Origin: Prolixibacteraceae bacterium
GTDB lineage: Bacteria > Bacteroidota > Bacteroidia > Bacteroidales > Prolixibacteraceae
Direction: 5' to 3'
DNA length: 64,000 nt
Assembly: GCA_019163175.1 (NCBI GenBank)
Contig: JAFLKN010000005.1
Location: 1-64,000 of the forward strand
This document shows positions 1 through 10,368 of this stretch, piece after piece. Both the position numbers and the translations under genes were made by a program. The notes beneath the pieces are model-generated. The model worked only from the letters and a program-made list of their open reading frames with translations. It ran no database searches and was not told the origin of the DNA. Position 1 is the first letter of the stretch. Each line of letters begins with the position of its first letter.

Positions 1-2654
1 GCGACGAAAAGAAAACCGAACTCGAAATTATTGACGAAGAATATGCCAAAGGACGGCGCAACCGAAAAAAGGAAACGATTAAAAAACTGGCCGATAATTT
101 ACAGGCTTACCGAAATTGGCTGCTGCAAATTACCATTTGTGATCCGGCTTGCGGCAGCGGGGCTTTCCTGAACCAGGCACTCGAATTTTTAATGACCGAA
201 CATGCCTACATCGACGAGTTGCAAGCGCAGTTGTTTGGCGCCAGCATTGTTTTTCAGGACATCAGCAACCATATTTTGGAGCAGAATATTTTTGGGGTAG
301 ATATTAACGAAGAGAGTGTGGACATTGCCAAACTCTCGTTGTGGTTGCGCACCGCACAGCGCGGGCGGAAACTCACCACCCTGAACAACAACATAAAATG
401 CGGCAACTCGCTCATTGACGACCCTGCTGTGGCTGGCGATAAGGCGTTTAACTGGCAAAACGAATTTCCAAAGGTCTTTCAAAAGAAAGTTAAGAAGGCT
501 TGGCACGTTACCTGTGCCACGCACAATTCGAGGTACTCGCAGCGCATGTTCGACAATTACGTGAAACTCGGCGAACCGGTTTGGCTTTCGGCAAAAGAAG
601 AAATGATTGTGACCGAAACCATTGCCGAAATTGTAGAAAAAGATGGTCTGAATGTGCTGGCCTATAACATCTGCGGCGACCACATGCACCTGCTGCTGGT
701 GTGCGAAGACGAAGAACTGCCCCGAATCGTACAGAAGATAAAGTCGATGTCGGCTCGTGCGACGAATATCGCGATGGGCCGAACGAAGGGGCATGCCCCC
801 TCGGCAGATAGTACGATACCGGTATCGGGAACGTCGGGAACGATGGAGCATGCTCCATCGTCTATACCTCCCTCGTCTATATCTCTCTCGGAGTATAGTA
901 TCGGCGAGACTGCGATGGAATGGGTAAACGACGATGGAGACACCGGATACCGTGGTACTACACAGGCGCACCTGTGGACACAAAAGTTCGGACGCAATCT
1001 GATACGCTCCGACGAACAACTCTGGAATACGATCGCCTACATACGGAATAACCGCGCGAAACACGGCCTACCGGACGATGGAAACGATGGAGCATGCTCC
1101 ATCGCTTCCATCGTATCGGTCGTCTCCGTAGAACACGCGTTCCGTACCGAATATGCGGGTGGTTTCGATGTCGTAATCGGAAATCCGCCGTATGTGCAGC
1201 TCCAAACAATGGGCGAAATGAGCGATAAACTAAAAAGTTGTGGCTACGAATCGTTCGAAAAAGGAGCCGACCTGTATTGTATATTCACCGAACGCGGTTA
1301 CCAGTTGCTAAAGAAAGGTGGCTTGCAATCGTTCATTATGCCCAACAAATGGATGTTGGTTGAGTATGGCAAACCGCTGCGTAAATTTTTGTCGAAAACA
1401 GGTTTGAGGCAAGTGCTCAACTTTGGCGACATCCAATTTTTTGCTGAAGCTACGACCTATGTTTGCATTTTTGTTACGCAAAAAAGCATGCCATTCGAAA
1501 ACCTTGAAGTTTTGTCGTTCAATCAGAAAACCTATCACGGCGATTTTATGACCGAGGTTGGAAGCAATATTTACAACGATGCCGCATCAAAATTTGGAGA
1601 ATCGGAATGGAGCATTCAGCCACTGAATGATTCGCGCAAGTTGCAGCAAATGAAATTGAATGGCACCGAATTGAAAGATTTGCCAATAAGCATAAACTAC
1701 GGAATAAAAACAGGTTTTAATGATGCTTTCTTTGTTGACGAAGAAACACGCCAAAAGCTGATTGCAGCCGATGCCCGGAGTGCCGAACTCATCAAACCAA
1801 TGGCGCGTGGCCGTGATATTTCGGAGTATGAAATAAGTGGTTTTGAATATTTAGTTGGCACATTTCCAGCCTTGAAATTGGATATTGAAAATTATCCGGC
1901 CATTAAAGATCATTTGCTCTCGTTTGGGTTTGACCGGTTAAAACAAACTGGCGACAAAGACGCACGAAAAAAGACTAGCGGAAAGTGGTTTGAGACACAA
2001 GACAGCATCAACTATTACACGGAATTTGCCAAACCAAAAATCATGTATCCGAATATGACTTCGGTATTTCCGTTTATGTACGATGAAAGTGGAATGTTGA
2101 GCAACGATAAAAGTTTCATTCTTACGGCAAACGATGCTTCTGTTTCGTTACAGTTTCTTACAGCCGTATTCAATTCATCGTTGGCAAAACTTTGGATTTG
2201 GTACAATTGTCCCGAGTTGCAGGGAGGCACACGCGAAATACGTAAAATATATTTCGAGCATTTTCCGGTTCCGCAAGCAAACCCCGAACAGACGGCTACA
2301 CTTGCACAACATGCCACCAACCGCGCCCGGTTAACCGCCAGCTTGCAAACCCTAAGTTCGAAATTCCAGCGCAGCATTTTGCGTAAATTCCCTATACTAT
2401 CGACAAGGGAGCTTGCTCCCTTGTCGAACTTTTATCTTCTTTCGTATGCCGAATTTATCGCCGGGTTGGGTAAAAAGAAAGTAAAGTTATCGCTTACGGA
2501 AGAAGCCGAATGGGAAGAATATTTTCTACAGGAGAGTAAGAAAGCCCTCGAACTAAAAGCTGCAATCGATACCACCGACCGCGAAATAGACCGCATGGTT
2601 TATGCCCTCTATGGCCTAAGCGATGAGGAAATCCAGATCGTAGAACAAGCCTAA
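1..2654 (+). CDS. Type IIG (Eco57I-like) restriction-modification enzyme with internal RAYT-like domain, 5' partial
   Basis: The open frame enters from the left edge (first full codon at 3) and ends at TAA 2652-2654. The ATG at 192 is not the true start, because SAM-binding motif I (DPACGSGAF, 141-167) lies upstream in the same frame. N6-adenine methyltransferase motif IV NPPY is at 1182-1193. The C-terminal half has the pattern of a TaqI/Eco57I-type target recognition domain (GIKTGFNDAFFVD, then KPMARGRDI). In this family methylation and cleavage usually sit in one polypeptide, but the N-terminal nuclease part would lie outside the window. The sequences EFPKVF and GGFDVVIGNPPY, normally contiguous, are split by about 226 residues resembling a Y1 transposase. 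The frame is intact throughout, so the product may be functional, but activity is unproven. A convergent kinase gene ends 43 bp downstream. Confidence 0.88.
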   Translation, partial: DEKKTELEIIDEEYAKGRRNRKKETIKKLADNLQAYRNWLLQITICDPACGSGAFLNQALEFLMTEHAYIDELQAQLFGASIVFQDISNHILEQNIFGVDINEESVDIAKLSLWLRTAQRGRKLTTLNNNIKCGNSLIDDPAVAGDKAFNWQNEFPKVFQKKVKKAWHVTCATHNSRYSQRMFDNYVKLGEPVWLSAKEEMIVTETIAEIVEKDGLNVLAYNICGDHMHLLLVCEDEELPRIVQKIKSMSARATNIAMGRTKGHAPSADSTIPVSGTSGTMEHAPSSIPPSSISLSEYSIGETAMEWVNDDGDTGYRGTTQAHLWTQKFGRNLIRSDEQLWNTIAYIRNNRAKHGLPDDGNDGACSIASIVSVVSVEHAFRTEYAGGFDVVIGNPPYVQLQTMGEMSDKLKSCGYESFEKGADLYCIFTERGYQLLKKGGLQSFIMPNKWMLVEYGKPLRKFLSKTGLRQVLNFGDIQFFAEATTYVCIFVTQKSMPFENLEVLSFNQKTYHGDFMTEVGSNIYNDAASKFGESEWSIQPLNDSRKLQQMKLNGTELKDLPISINYGIKTGFNDAFFVDEETRQKLIAADARSAELIKPMARGRDISEYEISGFEYLVGTFPALKLDIENYPAIKDHLLSFGFDRLKQTGDKDARKKTSGKWFETQDSINYYTEFAKPKIMYPNMTSVFPFMYDESGMLSNDKSFILTANDASVSLQFLTAVFNSSLAKLWIWYNCPELQGGTREIRKIYFEHFPVPQANPEQTATLAQHATNRARLTASLQTLSSKFQRSILRKFPILSTRELAPLSNFYLLSYAEFIAGLGKKKVKLSLTEEAEWEEYFLQESKKALELKAAIDTTDREIDRMVYALYGLSDEEIQIVEQA
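784..803. repeat. REP-like palindrome 1
   Basis: The perfect 12-bp core GGGGCATGCCCC (788-799) is extended by three further pairs on each side of one mismatch. It lies in the linker of the RAYT-like domain and is translated (KGHAPS). Confidence 0.75.
814..827. repeat. Perfect 14-bp palindrome in the RAYT linker
   Basis: CGATACCGGTATCG is its own reverse complement. It lies between REP-like palindromes 1 and 2 and could be part of the same mosaic element. Confidence 0.55.
840..861. repeat. REP-like palindrome 2 (22 bp perfect)
   Basis: A perfect 22-bp palindrome with core GGAGCATGCTCC. Its central 20 bp are identical to the centre of palindrome 3 at 1085-1104. It is translated as MEHAPSS within the transposase-like insert. 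Confidence 0.85.
1075..1114. repeat. REP-like palindrome 3 (40 bp, one mismatch pair)
   Basis: The 20-bp core at 1085-1104 is identical to that of palindrome 2. Nine more pairs (ACGATGGAA / TTCCATCGT) extend it beyond a single mismatch (1084/1105). It lies just after the catalytic-tyrosine helix, at the boundary between the RAYT-like insert and the resumed methylase sequence. Confidence 0.85.
2400..2427. repeat. REP-like hairpin 4 in the specificity region
   Basis: Arms of 13 bp (CGACAAGGGAGC plus one closing T-A pair) flank a 2-nt TT centre. The core GGAGC-TT-GCTCC matches the family core GGRGC-WT-GCYCC of palindromes 1-3. It is translated in frame (STRELAPLS) near the C-terminal end of the recognition domain. 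Confidence 0.75.
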
Positions 2655-4605: not shown

Positions 4606-7600
4606 TTAACTTACGATGTACATATCAATGGTTTTTAAGAAAAGCACCACATCAAGTGGCTTGGTCATGTATTTTTTAGCTCCACTTCCCATTAAACCTT
4701 CAATTTGCTGAGGCATTGCATCAGCGCTGATTACAATAACAGGGATATCCGTTGTCCTTTCATCTGCCAGAAGCAAGGTAAGTACATCTTTGCCATGAAT
4801 ATCGGGAAGATTGAGATCCAGCAATATTAAATCCGGCTTATGAAGTACGGCCAAATCCACAGCTGTTTTGCCATTCGTGGTAACGATAAGCTGAATGCCT
4901 GGGCGCTGACTCGAAAGAATCTGCTCAACCAGTTCGATATTGGATGCATTATCTTCGATACACAAAATTGTTCCGTTCTTACGTCCACTCTCAGAACCCG
5001 GATTTGCTGACAGATGTGTTTTTTCAGCATTTTTCAACTGACTTTCGACATGCTGCAATTCGATCCAGAAGGTACTTCCTACTCCAAATTTACTTTCCAG
5101 ACCAATCTCACCGTGCATAGCATCCATCAGTTTTTTCACTACAGTAAGTCCAAGGCCCGAACCTTCGGCGCCGGTAAATTCGGCACCAATGCGTTCAAAC
5201 GGCATAAAAAGTTTCGAAATATCTGTTTCGCGAATTCCAGTTCCAGTATCAGTTACCGAAATCCGGATATATTCCTTTTCATTTCGGACAGGCATTATTT
5301 CGGTTCGTATAGAAATTGATCCGCCTGGTCGGTTGTATTTTACTGCATTGTTAATCAGGTTCATCAATACTTGTTTCAACCGCTGACGGTCGGCTTTTAT
5401 ATATTCTGAATTAACTACTGAATCGATTAAAATTAGTTGTATCTGCCGTGTATTCGCCAGGGGCTGAATGGTATCAATCATTTCGAGGAGAACTTCGCTG
5501 AGTTTTACAGGTTCGGTAGAGAGCGAAAGTTTTCCGGCTTCGATACGCGAAATATCGAGTACTTCATTAATTAAATCGAGCAAATGTTTTCCACCTTGCA
5601 GAATGTGGTCAACTCCTTTTTTCTGTGGTGCATTGAGTTGTCCCATTTCAAGCAATTGGGCAAACCCAAGAATGGCATTCATAGGAGTCCGGAGTTCGTG
5701 GCTCATACGCGAAAGGAATTCACTTTTAGCCATATTGGCCTGTTCGGCTTCTTCCCTGGCTCTTTTGGCCTCTTCCTCGGCCTTAACACGTTCAGTAATA
5801 TCAATATTTACGGTAAGAACGCATCGCCTATCGCCAATGTAAAACGAATCTGCCGACAATAAACCGTTTTTTATATCTCCTGTTTTAGTCCGCATTTCCA
5901 TTTCCAATTTTTTGACCGGAATGTCGCGTGCTAATTTGCGTATAATCGCTCCTCTTAAATCTGGATCAACAAAAAGCCTCAGTTCTCTATTTGTTTTTCC
6001 TACAATCTCTTCGCGGCTGTAACCCATTGTTTCAAGAAACGCATTGTTGATGTCAACGTATTCGCCGCTGTCGAAGTACGAAATGGCCATCATAGCTGAA
6101 TTGGCATGGAAAGCTGTCGAGAATTTTTTCTCTGACAAGCTAATCTGAGAAATGTCTTTGCTTACACCAAATATGACCGGAACTCCATTCCAAAAGCCTG
6201 CTTTTACGCGTGTTTCAACCGGAATCGGAGTGCCCGATTTGGTGACGACCGGAACCGGACAAAATTCGCTTGTACCAGCCAGCATTTCGCCAACAATTCG
6301 GCCGGCTTCTTCTCTGCGTTCAGGAGGATGTACCATTAATACCGATTGATTTTGAAGCTCTTCATTCGAATACTCAAGTCGTTTTTTTACCGTATTGTTG
6401 GTGTGGATAATGTTTCCCTGCTCGTCGAGTACCCACAGAAAATCGTCGATGGTATTGAAGAATGTTTCATAATTCTGCCGGGTTTGTTCAAGTATACCTT
6501 CAGACCGTTTGTTATTGATCAGGCTCGAAAGCATACTGCTCCATACTTTCAGGATATTGATTTCTGAACTGTTGTACTCTTTCTTTTCATGAACTGAATC
6601 CAATCCAACAAAGCCAATGAGCTTATTTTCGGTTAACATCGGTATAGCAATCAGTGATTGAATTTCCTGGGGTTCGAGAATTTCACGTTCGGCCTTCCAG
6701 CTATCGGGTAAATCTTTTACTAAGGGTATCAAAACACAACCGTGTTTTTGAATGGTTTCCATCCACATGGGAAATACGGTAACCGGAACTTCCTTTAGGT
6801 TTTCAATTTCAGATTGGATGCCCTCGTTGCACCATTCGTAAGTATTGCTGAAAGTACTGCCATCTGAACTGAATTCAAAGATATACGACCTGTCGGCTCC
6901 AAGGAATTTACCTATTTTGCCTAATGCCATAGTAAGGGCTTTATCAATTTCCGAAACAGAGATACCTGTTAACCTTGATGATAATTGCAGCAATTCATCC
7001 TCAAACTCTTCGGCACGCATGCGTTCGGTAATGTCGCGGGCCGCGGCATAAATCAGGTTTCCGGCCGGAGAACTGTGCCACTCAATATACCGGTAACTGC
7101 CATCTTTGGCATGGTATCGATTTGTGAAGTTAATAACCGGATTTTGCTCACTCAATTCACTTATGGCATTCAGTGTGGTCTGCAAATCATCTGGATGAAC
7201 AAATTCAAGGAATTGCCTGTGCTCCAATTCGGAAGTGGTATAACCCAATAAGGTTTCCCATGCTTTATTCACCCGAATGAAGTTCCCGGATGTATCGGCA
7301 ATGCATAGTAAATCCAGAGCTACATTGAAGAAATTTTCGAGTTCAGCAGTTTTTACCTGCAAGGCTTCTGATATCTGCTGTCGTTCTTCAATTTCCCTGA
7401 TCAAATTGGCATTGGTCTCAGCCAGCGCCGCTGTTCTGTCGGCAATTTTGCGTTCCAGGCTAGCATTTAATTCCTTTATTTCCTGCTCGTCCTTTTTCCT
7501 TTGGGTGATATCTTGCTTTACAGCTATATAGTTCGTTATTTTTCCTGATTCATCGTGGATTGGCGCGATGGAGACACTTTCCCAATAGAGTTCACCATTT

Positions 7601-10368
7601 TTTTTCCGGTTGATCCATTCTCCCTCCCATTCTTTTCCAGCAGTAATGGTATTCCAAAGATCACGGTATACTGATTGCTCTGTTTGCCCGGATTTTAATA
7701 TCTGTGGATTTTTTCCTATTGCTTCCTCCTGTCTGTAACCGGTAACTGTAGTAAAAGCTTCGTTCACATATTCAATGGAGCCATTCAGGTCGGTAACAAC
7801 TACTAATACAGGGCTCTGCTCAATAGCCTGAGAAAGTTTCTTGATTTGAATATCTTTTTGTTTTCTATCGGTAATGTCACGGATGAAGCTTAATACCCTT
7901 TCATCTCCCAGAGGAGTCAATCTTGCTTCGAAAAACAAAAGTGCGTTTTCGTTAGGTAAGACATATTCGTAGGTGATCAGATTTTGCTGTTCAATACATT
8001 CGTTGATTTTTCGGATGTGCAAATCAGCGGTTTCTGCATCAAATAAATCTTTTACATTGGTGCCGATAATACGATCTTCAGGGGCAAGTAGTCTTTCCTG
8101 ATTTCTTGTATAATATTCCTGATAGGCTCCACTTTTGTCTACTACAAACATCAGGTCGGGCATGGCGCTGATTATGGCATTTAATCGCTCATTTTGCTGT
8201 TTTATTTCTTCTTCGGCCAGTTTCTTTTCTGTAATATCAATGCTTATTCCACTTAAGGCAACCAGCTCATTATCAACAAACCTTGGAACGATGTTGCTTT
8301 GTATCCATTTCATTTTTCCATCGGGCATGATCAGCCGGAAATACATGATCCCCATTGAGTGCGTTTCCAGGATTTCTGCTACTCTTAAATCAAACAAATC
8401 ACGATCATCAGGGTGAACCATCTTTTTTATTTCATCCAGAGACATTGGTAATTCTGATGGATCTTTGTCAAGAAGACGGTAGTAGTTTTTTGACCAGCTT
8501 ACCCCATTTGTTTTCACATTGAACTCCCAACTCCCCATGTTTGCAATTTCCTGTGCATAATTCAATACTTCCTCGCTATGGAGTAGGGCCTGTTCGTGCT
8601 GCTTAAGTTCAGTGATATCAATTGCTGTAGCCGACAAAAATTGCGGAACATTATTTGAATCCACAATAATCGAAGCATTCATCAGGCTGGGGAAAATGCT
8701 GCCATCTTTTCGTGTACGCCAAACCTCTTCCGCCGAGAATTTCCCATCTAATTTTAGTAATTCAATGGTTTCTTCCACCCTGACCATTTGCTCGGGATTG
8801 TGGAAAATACTGAGGTTTTTCCCTATAACTTCTTCAGGCTCTCGCTGGTGCATTCGGGCGAACTCCTGATTCACGTATATAATAATTCCATCGAGTGTTG
8901 ATATGGCTGATCCGTAATTGGCCTGATCGGTAATTGTGCGGAATTTGCTGACTTCCTGAATTGCCTTTTCGCGTTCTTTTTCTACTTCAATGGCTTCGAA
9001 TGCAAAACTTATATCACCTGCAACCTCTTCAAGCAATTTGATTTCTTCCAGATTGAAGAAATGTGCAACAGCTGAATAAATGTTGAAACTGGCAATTACC
9101 TTTCCGGATTGTTTAATTGGCAAAGCTATGGATGACCGGTATTCCCTTTTCAAGGCTTCCTCTTTCCAGGGAGCCATGTGTGGATCGTTTTCAATGTCGT
9201 TACACACAAAATAGGTACCTTCGCGCAAGGCAATTGCCGTAGGTCCCTGACCTTCAGGAGAGTCGGATGGCGAAATTTGTTTGATATGCGAAAGGTAGCC
9301 TTCTTCCCATCCTTTAAAGACAGCTGGTTTAACCGTTTTCGATTCTTCATCGAGCAATCCAATCCAGGCCATTCTGAATTTTCCAAAGTTAATGGCAATG
9401 GAACAAATTTGGTCCAATAATTTTTCCTTGTCCCTGGTATACACAATGGCCTGATTAACCTGACTGATTACAGCATACAGGCGATTGGCTTTTATGATCG
9501 ATTCTTCAGCCAGTTTTTGTTCGCTAATATCTTTTAAAGTACCAACCCTACTGATCAGTTTTCCTTCTTTGTGTATGCTGGTTGTAGATTTACTTAGCCA
9601 ACGGATTTCACCTGATTTGGTGATAAACCGGTATTCATGAATGCTTGATCCCTTAATTTCAGCAGAGGTCAACCTTTCGGCCAAAACAGGACGATCATCG
9701 GCATGAAGGATGTTGAAAGCACTTTGTCCAATAAGTTCTTTGGGTTGATAACCCAGAATTTTTTCAACAGAGGGGCTAATGTATTTTATAGTTCCATCGG
9801 CAGCAAATTCATAAATAATTTCACTGATGGTTTCGACCAGATTACGAAACCTCTCTTCGCTCTGCCTAAGAACAGAGTCCTTTTCATTTTTTTCAATGAA
9901 ATTGCCAATTCGCTCGGCTATTGAAAACAACAAATCAGTTTCTTCAATTAAGAAAATCTGTTGGGTAAATACCTGGTTATCCGGATAACAAACCTTAACA
10001 TGGCCAATAACATTTCCGTTGATTTTTATATCCTGAACCAGGGAGTGTTTGGAAGTATGGTAATTTGGAGTCTGAAAAGTTTGGTCGTAAACAACAACCA
10101 CGGCTTCAGCAATTTCGGGGAATTGCCAGCTTGGCGGAATAATCTGTACAATTTTCTCAATCACTTCAAAGGTTGAAAGCTTCGGATTGGCCATAAGTTT
10201 TGAGATCTGATTATGGCAATTCAGTTCTTTCAGTCTTTCCTGAAGCGCAAACTCAATTGATTTTCGGTCGTTTAACTCCTGATTAAACGACTGCTTCAGA
10301 GCGTTGAGTTCTTGTTTTAGTTCTTCCAACTGGTTAAGCTGGTCATCACTTTCGTCAATGTTCCCCAT
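4606..10368 (-). CDS. Multi-PAS/GAF hybrid histidine kinase with C-terminal receiver (1920 aa)
   Basis: A giant cytoplasmic sensor with no signal peptide or clear membrane segment. Order: coiled-coil start; an N-terminal sensory region (about 45-165, with PPSWQFPEIAEA and DIKINGNVIG); PAS; GAF; five more PAS; a second GAF; two more PAS (eight PAS, two GAF by my count); HisKA with H1557 in RMSHELRTP; HATPase with DTGTGI; and a receiver with D1851 (LILLDLNLPD). The receiver probably passes phosphate to an HPt protein or controls the kinase. Its N-terminus, last PAS modules and catalytic core closely resemble the 2976-residue protein encoded just upstream, so the two are tandem paralogues. They are 75 bp apart on one strand and probably co-transcribed. 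Ligands are unknown; no haem or flavin signature was identified. Confidence 0.93.
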   Translation of the reverse strand: MGNIDESDDQLNQLEELKQELNALKQSFNQELNDRKSIEFALQERLKELNCHNQISKLMANPKLSTFEVIEKIVQIIPPSWQFPEIAEAVVVVYDQTFQTPNYHTSKHSLVQDIKINGNVIGHVKVCYPDNQVFTQQIFLIEETDLLFSIAERIGNFIEKNEKDSVLRQSEERFRNLVETISEIIYEFAADGTIKYISPSVEKILGYQPKELIGQSAFNILHADDRPVLAERLTSAEIKGSSIHEYRFITKSGEIRWLSKSTTSIHKEGKLISRVGTLKDISEQKLAEESIIKANRLYAVISQVNQAIVYTRDKEKLLDQICSIAINFGKFRMAWIGLLDEESKTVKPAVFKGWEEGYLSHIKQISPSDSPEGQGPTAIALREGTYFVCNDIENDPHMAPWKEEALKREYRSSIALPIKQSGKVIASFNIYSAVAHFFNLEEIKLLEEVAGDISFAFEAIEVEKEREKAIQEVSKFRTITDQANYGSAISTLDGIIIYVNQEFARMHQREPEEVIGKNLSIFHNPEQMVRVEETIELLKLDGKFSAEEVWRTRKDGSIFPSLMNASIIVDSNNVPQFLSATAIDITELKQHEQALLHSEEVLNYAQEIANMGSWEFNVKTNGVSWSKNYYRLLDKDPSELPMSLDEIKKMVHPDDRDLFDLRVAEILETHSMGIMYFRLIMPDGKMKWIQSNIVPRFVDNELVALSGISIDITEKKLAEEEIKQQNERLNAIISAMPDLMFVVDKSGAYQEYYTRNQERLLAPEDRIIGTNVKDLFDAETADLHIRKINECIEQQNLITYEYVLPNENALLFFEARLTPLGDERVLSFIRDITDRKQKDIQIKKLSQAIEQSPVLVVVTDLNGSIEYVNEAFTTVTGYRQEEAIGKNPQILKSGQTEQSVYRDLWNTITAGKEWEGEWINRKKNGELYWESVSIAPIHDESGKITNYIAVKQDITQRKKDEQEIKELNASLERKIADRTAALAETNANLIREIEERQQISEALQVKTAELENFFNVALDLLCIADTSGNFIRVNKAWETLLGYTTSELEHRQFLEFVHPDDLQTTLNAISELSEQNPVINFTNRYHAKDGSYRYIEWHSSPAGNLIYAAARDITERMRAEEFEDELLQLSSRLTGISVSEIDKALTMALGKIGKFLGADRSYIFEFSSDGSTFSNTYEWCNEGIQSEIENLKEVPVTVFPMWMETIQKHGCVLIPLVKDLPDSWKAEREILEPQEIQSLIAIPMLTENKLIGFVGLDSVHEKKEYNSSEINILKVWSSMLSSLINNKRSEGILEQTRQNYETFFNTIDDFLWVLDEQGNIIHTNNTVKKRLEYSNEELQNQSVLMVHPPERREEAGRIVGEMLAGTSEFCPVPVVTKSGTPIPVETRVKAGFWNGVPVIFGVSKDISQISLSEKKFSTAFHANSAMMAISYFDSGEYVDINNAFLETMGYSREEIVGKTNRELRLFVDPDLRGAIIRKLARDIPVKKLEMEMRTKTGDIKNGLLSADSFYIGDRRCVLTVNIDITERVKAEEEAKRAREEAEQANMAKSEFLSRMSHELRTPMNAILGFAQLLEMGQLNAPQKKGVDHILQGGKHLLDLINEVLDISRIEAGKLSLSTEPVKLSEVLLEMIDTIQPLANTRQIQLILIDSVVNSEYIKADRQRLKQVLMNLINNAVKYNRPGGSISIRTEIMPVRNEKEYIRISVTDTGTGIRETDISKLFMPFERIGAEFTGAEGSGLGLTVVKKLMDAMHGEIGLESKFGVGSTFWIELQHVESQLKNAEKTHLSANPGSESGRKNGTILCIEDNASNIELVEQILSSQRPGIQLIVTTNGKTAVDLAVLHKPDLILLDLNLPDIHGKDVLTLLLADERTTDIPVIVISADAMPQQIEGLMGSGAKKYMTKPLDVVLFLKTIDMYIVS

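Follow-up and report, generated by a model that had tools for sequence, protein, structure and literature searches.

A RAYT-like HUH/Y1 domain nested in a type IIG restriction-modification gene of a Prolixibacteraceae bacterium and its candidate partner palindromes in the host gene

What a transposase-type domain does within the methylase of a restriction enzyme, and how it comes to lie there, are the questions raised by the first gene on contig JAFLKN010000005.1 (GenBank assembly GCA_019163175.1) of a Prolixibacteraceae bacterium. The first 64,000 nucleotides of this contig, called the window in the following, were analyzed. They begin with a type IIG restriction-modification gene (3..2654, + strand), whose methylase is interrupted in frame by a domain resembling the repetitive extragenic palindrome (REP)-associated tyrosine transposases (RAYTs) and whose coding sequence carries short palindromes of one kind. 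On balance, we regard it as probable that domain and palindromes together form a mobile-repeat system within one defence gene. RAYTs are described as domesticated transposases, and the way in which their repeats spread is hard to catch. With the likely enzyme and the repeats in one gene, movement could be scored by sequencing a single locus and tested with point mutants. Also, a defence gene hosting such a system in its catalytic half is of relevance to the ways in which restriction genes acquire loops, break, vary, and recombine.

The host gene and its inserted domain

The original prediction for this locus had described a frame open on both sides of an insert, and the frame 3..2654 is open as described. 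In Pfam, it matched Eco57I (157.7 bits), TaqI_C (48.7), MmeI_Mtase (45.7), and Y1_Tnp (31.7 bits at a cut-off of 23), and in PADLOC it matched REase_MTase_IIG with a best E value of 7.6e-142; the relative L059 reached 1050.7 bits for PDLC03609 of the same PADLOC system. Methylase motif I (DPACGSG, 141..161) is invariant in 58/58 rows of alignment A2, which comprises the window and 57 of the 71 fused loci described below. Motif IV (NPPY, 1182..1193) follows shortly past the insert, and the TaqI_C target-recognition region covers 1800..2270 (residues 600-756); all these features lie on the + strand. By PADLOC and Pfam, the family has the type IIG organization, in which a single chain combines a nuclease part with the methylase and a target-recognition part. 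The N-terminal part of the window's own gene probably sits on another contig: the window is contig C7 from base 1, and the gene is cut at the contig edge, which the original prediction had not noticed. The final 55 nt of contig C60 of the same genome are identical to the window start, and C60 holds the N-terminal half of such a gene. Joined, both contigs yield a frame of 1338 codons from stop to stop with no internal stop, and judged from the overlap they probably adjoin.

The insert (480..1157, + strand) lies between EFPKVF and GGFDVVIGNPPY, and both predicted joints are confirmed by homologues without the domain. The stretch 471-1157 alone gave 36.3 bits for Y1_Tnp, which was matched in 58/58 family members at E 0.001. 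The catalytic residues had been named as H164, H166, and Y283 in a numbering that begins with the ATG at 192; when numbering begins at base 3, they become H227 and H229 of the HUH motif D226-H227-M228-H229 (678..689) and Y346 in YIRNNR (1038..1040). DHxH plus a downstream tyrosine was present in 81/81 frames; D, H, and H are invariant in 71/71 rows of alignment A3 (the window and 70 of the 80 loci below), and the tyrosine is invariant in both A2 and A3. The HUH and tyrosine halves are separated by a linker (786..962) that contains palindromes and is predicted to be disordered (predicted local distance difference test, pLDDT, below 50 at residues 262-320). The NCBIfam model REP_Tyr_transpos (NF047646) gave 43.5 bits with the frame and 49.3 bits with the insert, both below its curated cut-off of 80; the linker splits the match.

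The expected folded HUH domain near motif IV agrees with the predicted structure: within an 883-residue model of the frame, the insert is predicted to take the HUH fold, and the known structures of CamA, BrxX, MmeI, and BpuSI align with this model. The domain occurs in many genomes, and across 52 genes its core averages 59% identity with the catalytic residues invariant; the median ratio of nonsynonymous to synonymous substitution rates (dN/dS) is 0.11. The insert thus looks like an intact RAYT-like HUH/Y1 single-strand nuclease domain, for which nuclease chemistry is presumed. No intein (Hint) family was among its Pfam matches at E 1. A profile of the inserted domain found one place in the own genome, and no IS200/IS605 ends were seen around the insert, although such ends were not searched for systematically. 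Kinship with the seven other Y1_Tnp places of the genome (L001-L007) gained no support from a motif search, which gave no frame with a RAYT-type tyrosine motif.

A scan of genome contigs confirmed 153 relatives, of which the best 80 were kept. They come from records titled Bacteroidota, Chlorobiota, Ignavibacteria, Cloacimonadota, and Neomarinimicrobiota, these names being titles of mostly metagenome-assembled records with possible binning errors, and include Tangfeifania diversioriginum DSM 27063 and Flavobacterium branchiophilum NBRC 15030. In 71/80 loci, methylase motif I and NPPY share one frame with the domain. Among the remaining nine, L079, L080, L091, and L123 are truncated at contig edges, L067 enters masked letters, and in L065 the motif reads NPLY and is followed by a stop. 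Two related records contribute the stand-alone RAYTs L116 and L122, and in L081 an enzyme-like gene start (MSLFQ) is combined with a RAYT and no methylase. This last frame (L081:5971-6729) opens with MSLFQES and continues into the RAYT domain with palindromes, as if a fusion had lost its methylase. One of the two peptide patterns used, EYxGGFDVV, spans the domain-methylase joint, so that the best-80 sample favours fusions and gives no prevalence. A better guide is the window's family, where the domain was found in 19/140 genomes at E 1e-20; in the class, 68/395 genomes matched at E 0.001, and 5 of them, the own one included, had at least 150 bits in a frame of more than 800 residues. A search of 50,697 phage and 72,556 plasmid records gave no match to the insert at E 1e-5, and none of 62 stretches of viral contigs that fitted a pattern encoded a relative. 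Carriage by phages or plasmids was rejected on these grounds.

Palindromes of the host gene and their placement

The gene in the window contains four palindromes of one kind, likewise not noticed in the original prediction and all given on the + strand: GGGGCATGCCCC in the linker (788..799), a palindrome of 22 nt with the core GGAGCATGCTCC (840..861), one of 20 nt with the same core past the tyrosine helix (1085..1104), and, outside the insert, one of 28 nt in the C-terminal part (2400..2427) with a 13-bp stem and a 2-nt loop. The end of C60 adds two, one of them imperfect. In the own genome of 5.9 Mb, GGRGCATGCYCC has 3 places and GGGAGCWWGCTCCC has 2, all 5 within this gene if C60 and C7 adjoin.

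For counting, G+C-rich palindromes with a stem of at least 8 and a loop of 0 or 2 were considered. With L081, L116, and L122 excluded, the 77 RAYT-bearing genes (266,547 nt) held 146 of them versus 8 in 490,477 nt of their flanks, and the number per gene ranged from 0 to 7, with none in 12/77. The 34 loci without the domain gave 6 over the 113,238 nt of their 35 frames and 3 over 109,792 nt of flanking sequence. Within the 71 fused genes, the insert had the highest density, with 1.85 per kb against 0.34 for the N part and 0.14 for the C part; linker 1 reached 11.3 per kb at a stem of at least 7. The consensus of 154 copies, AACAAGGGRGCATGCYCCCTTGTC, is 24 nt long with conservation declining on both sides, and it is read in three frames (123, 29, and 2 copies), each of them open. 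Since all three reading frames are used, the conservation is that of the nucleic acid and not of the peptide only. The positions that hold such units of about 24 nt (eight codons) are the RAYT linkers, a loop preceding the IELK motif in the N-terminal nuclease part, another loop preceding the methylase, and spacers of the C-terminal part.

The type of palindrome agrees within a gene and follows the RAYT. In 31 genes with palindromes both inside and outside the insert, the type agreed in 68% of the pairs versus 26% after shuffling of the genes, and 0/2000 shuffles reached 68%. For 42 genes, the nearest neighbour shared the palindrome type in 60% of cases by the RAYT core (p 0.0005), 45% by the N part (p 0.02), and 43% by the C part (p 0.03), with 26-27% expected by chance; all three exceed chance, the RAYT most. 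Between close relatives, linker lengths change in frame, by 66 nt in L116 versus L122 and by 87 nt in L100 versus L128. L062 and L068 have palindrome pairs 45 nt apart both in N-terminal loops and in the RAYT linker, and in L120 and L128 the C-terminal copy shares also its flanking sequence with the linker copies.

Genome-wide, places of such palindromes were assigned to genes by coordinate comparison and some by reading the stretch. For GGRGCATGCYCC, fused genes accounted for 24 of the 38 places across 16 genomes, and type IIG-like genes lacking the domain for 6; the other 8 lay elsewhere (5/8 not symmetric). ACAAGGRNNNNNNNNYCCTTGT had 22 places across 28 genomes: 17 were in RAYT-bearing genes, including 3 that lay within or next to a RAYT of the stand-alone kind or in a stretch identified from its linker sequence; 1 was in a type IIG gene without the domain, 2 were outside long frames in genome G031, and 2 had no palindromic centre and lay in genomes without a RAYT match. 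AAGGGRRCATGYYCCCTT had 21 places across 36 genomes. Fused genes held 15 of these, and the stand-alone RAYT of L116 held 1; 4 more fell in type IIG-like genes that lack the domain (3 in G076, 1 in G020), and 1 was an intergenic place in G497, outside any frame of at least 150 residues. In 12 control genomes, AAGGGRRCATGYYCCCTT had 0 places. In G076, the 12-nt palindrome pattern has 8 places, each in a type IIG-like gene, which for 5 of the places lacks the domain.

Some single loci deserve mention. In G076, which also holds a fused gene, the same palindromes occur in L185, L187, L190, and L191, all of them type IIG-like genes lacking the domain. The fused frame L021/L075 on contig C8 of G076 starts only at the nuclease-loop palindrome QQGGHAPLKAIGVIELKST, its N-terminal part being out of frame or missing. 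The fused gene L041 of G048 is split into two overlapping frames inside the palindrome-rich linker, which suggests that repeat changes can break the enzyme. The places outside long frames in G031 (L210:2014 and L211:1962) are palindromes ACAAGGGGTTGYAACCCCTTGT with the outer stem as in the in-gene palindromes; they are possibly terminators. Another palindrome, CCGAGTACTCGG with extended stems, occurs three times in the flanks of L058 and L127.

Insertion site, proposed mechanism, and alternatives

In the fused genes, the domain occupies a fixed site and splits the methylase between motifs I and IV, just before motif IV. Homologues without the domain have 4-25 residues at this site, or 74-79 residues rich in Lys, Ala, and Glu; this alternative insert of about 75 residues, coiled-coil-like by eye, was seen in L017, L019, L023, L030, L032, L034, L053, and L056. 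At the protein level, the N part of the window's gene shares 97% identity over 418 columns with L054, a gene of the same genus without the domain, and the DNA match to L054 (88.7% over 1714 columns) ends within 6 nt of EFPKVF. The C part is closest, among five genes compared, to L055 (78.9% over 1221 nt), which also lacks the domain. A tree of the N part with 93 rows (72 fused, 11 with the 75-residue insert, and 10 with neither) required 11 changes of the fused label, at least 7 of them forced by starred branches; the tree was built by a quick method, and these counts cannot separate gain from loss. One ancient insertion with simple descent was rejected on this basis. Over 52 of the 81 frames (29 were left out for missing motifs or length), distances correlated weakly, at 0.12 for N-RAYT, 0.10 for RAYT-C, and 0.19 for N-C.

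Three readings had originally been offered for the insert: a domesticated defence fusion, an intein-like tolerated insertion, and a way for the RAYT to travel with a restriction-modification gene. The last fits best, as the presence of the domain is scattered on the host-gene tree and its distances barely follow those of the host; as part of the explanation that we favour, the domain probably occupies a permissive loop that precedes motif IV in type IIG enzymes, and it would move from one such gene to another. According to passages of PMC8266576 (PMC, PubMed Central), the RAYTs studied bind REP hairpins in single-stranded form, next to which they perform cleavage and joining, and by analogy the same action on its own palindromes would be the simplest reading for the domain described here. 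Its likely partner would be the palindromic unit of about 24 nt, which is nearly restricted to the gene that encodes the domain. The domain may recognize this unit as a single-stranded hairpin, the tyrosine would nick beside the hairpin, and copies would be moved, mainly in cis within the own gene but at times also to other type IIG genes. A copy would survive where eight added codons keep the frame in a flexible loop, and the gain would mainly be the element's own persistence.

Several observations weigh against this explanation. By the criterion used, 12/71 fused genes have no palindrome, and some homologues without the domain carry palindromes, among them one in G020, a genome without a RAYT match, so that a palindrome can outlast or lack the domain. 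A GT[AG]G foot accompanies 14/154 palindromes (both feet in 6) versus 5.9% at random places; because it is rare, the domain, if it cleaves, would read a different guide. N part and C part also predict the palindrome type somewhat, and linker changes can also arise by slippage or recombination between repeats. Finally, movement and chemistry of the domain are predictions from sequence.

A wider version of the proposal, which we consider possible but clearly less probable, is a repeat system confined to restriction-modification genes that seeds in-frame palindromes in cis and, in other type IIG genes, in trans, with linker and loop variation tuning or switching the enzyme. The places of the 12-nt pattern in G076 would fit such seeding in trans. 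A role in self-regulation appears unlikely. Here, the palindromes would be hairpins in gene or mRNA that are bound by the domain to control expression of the enzyme and kept by selection. The confinement of the palindromes to the gene and a type that follows the RAYT would fit, and changes or breaks in the linker, such as the broken frame in G048, could switch the enzyme; however, palindromes vary widely in number and place, are missing from some genes, and mostly lie in protein linkers and not near the start. Equally doubtful is a domesticated defence part, in which the HUH domain would add nicking or binding of single-stranded or hairpin DNA and be kept as help against phages or plasmids. 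It draws no direct support from the present data: the location in a defence gene and the conserved catalytic residues agree with it, but close homologues without the domain keep the rest of the enzyme, RAYTs persist without a methylase in L116, L122, and L081, and the confinement of the palindromes to the gene is left unexplained.

It is very improbable that N- and C-terminal halves, and with them restriction specificity, are shuffled by action of the RAYT. The insert does lie where the similarity of the window's gene switches from L054 to L055, and N, RAYT, and C distances are nearly unlinked, but homologues without the domain are shuffled as much: in 34 of them the N-C correlation was 0.22 for pairs above 50% N identity (0.03 for all pairs), and among pairs with at least 75% N identity, C identity was at least 60% in 12/71 without and 12/128 with the domain. 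N/C shuffling thus does not require the RAYT, and specificity shuffling by the RAYT is not claimed. A dead transposase domain tolerated in a loop as an inert passenger, with palindromes spread by slippage or gene conversion only, is similarly improbable. Tandem-like linker changes and the coiled-coil-like insert at the same site agree with it; invariant catalytic residues in a diverged core, the low dN/dS, and matching-type copies in loops far apart speak against it. The reading as an intein-like tolerated insertion is correct as to the place, but the invariant residues and the dN/dS contradict inertness.

Apart from this gene, the window contains a frame of 1920 residues (4606-10368, - strand) that by eye resembles a sensor histidine kinase with many PAS-type repeats.

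Comparison with known systems

The host gene resembles type IIG enzymes of the Eco57I, MmeI, and BpuSI kind in its single chain of N-terminal nuclease part, adenine methylase, and target-recognition part; unlike in these, the methylase is split by a transposase-type domain. From TnpA of IS200/IS605, the domain differs by lying in frame within another gene. REP elements have a GT[AG]G tetranucleotide 5′ of the hairpin, which most palindromes described here lack, and they occur in high copy number and mostly between genes, whereas AAGGGRRCATGYYCCCTT with its few places was intergenic only once.

Among the RAYT (TnpAREP) and REPtron systems, the closest is RAYT subclass 2.4, which, as described in passages of Quentin et al. 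2018 (PMC6006769), comprises stand-alone RAYTs with repeats in frame between HUH and Y. A HUH/Y1 domain, a variable HUH-Y linker with in-frame palindromes, and the occurrence in Bacteroidetes are shared with the domain studied here. The motifs NH[IFV]H, WQ, and YIxNNP of this subclass are replaced by DHxH, W[TA][QE], and, in most, YIxNNR or YIxTNR; because of these differences, the domain was not assigned to subclass 2.4. In further contrast to the subclass, it is nested in a restriction enzyme, its copies are nearly confined to the host gene family, and the GT[AG]G foot is mostly absent. The same passages state that unexpectedly long proteins were discarded as fusions or annotation errors. 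In the open PMC literature, with preprints, most subscription papers, and REBASE outside the scope, no description of a RAYT-like domain in a type IIG enzyme was seen among the matches listed.

The Rickettsia palindromic elements (RPE; passages of PMC3733652) are likewise short palindromes in frame within protein-coding genes. They are spread over many genes, whereas the copies described here cluster in the gene encoding the domain that likely mobilises them. With respect to these systems, it is new that the domain is nested in a restriction enzyme, that its insertion site recurs, and that the repeats hardly leave the host gene family.
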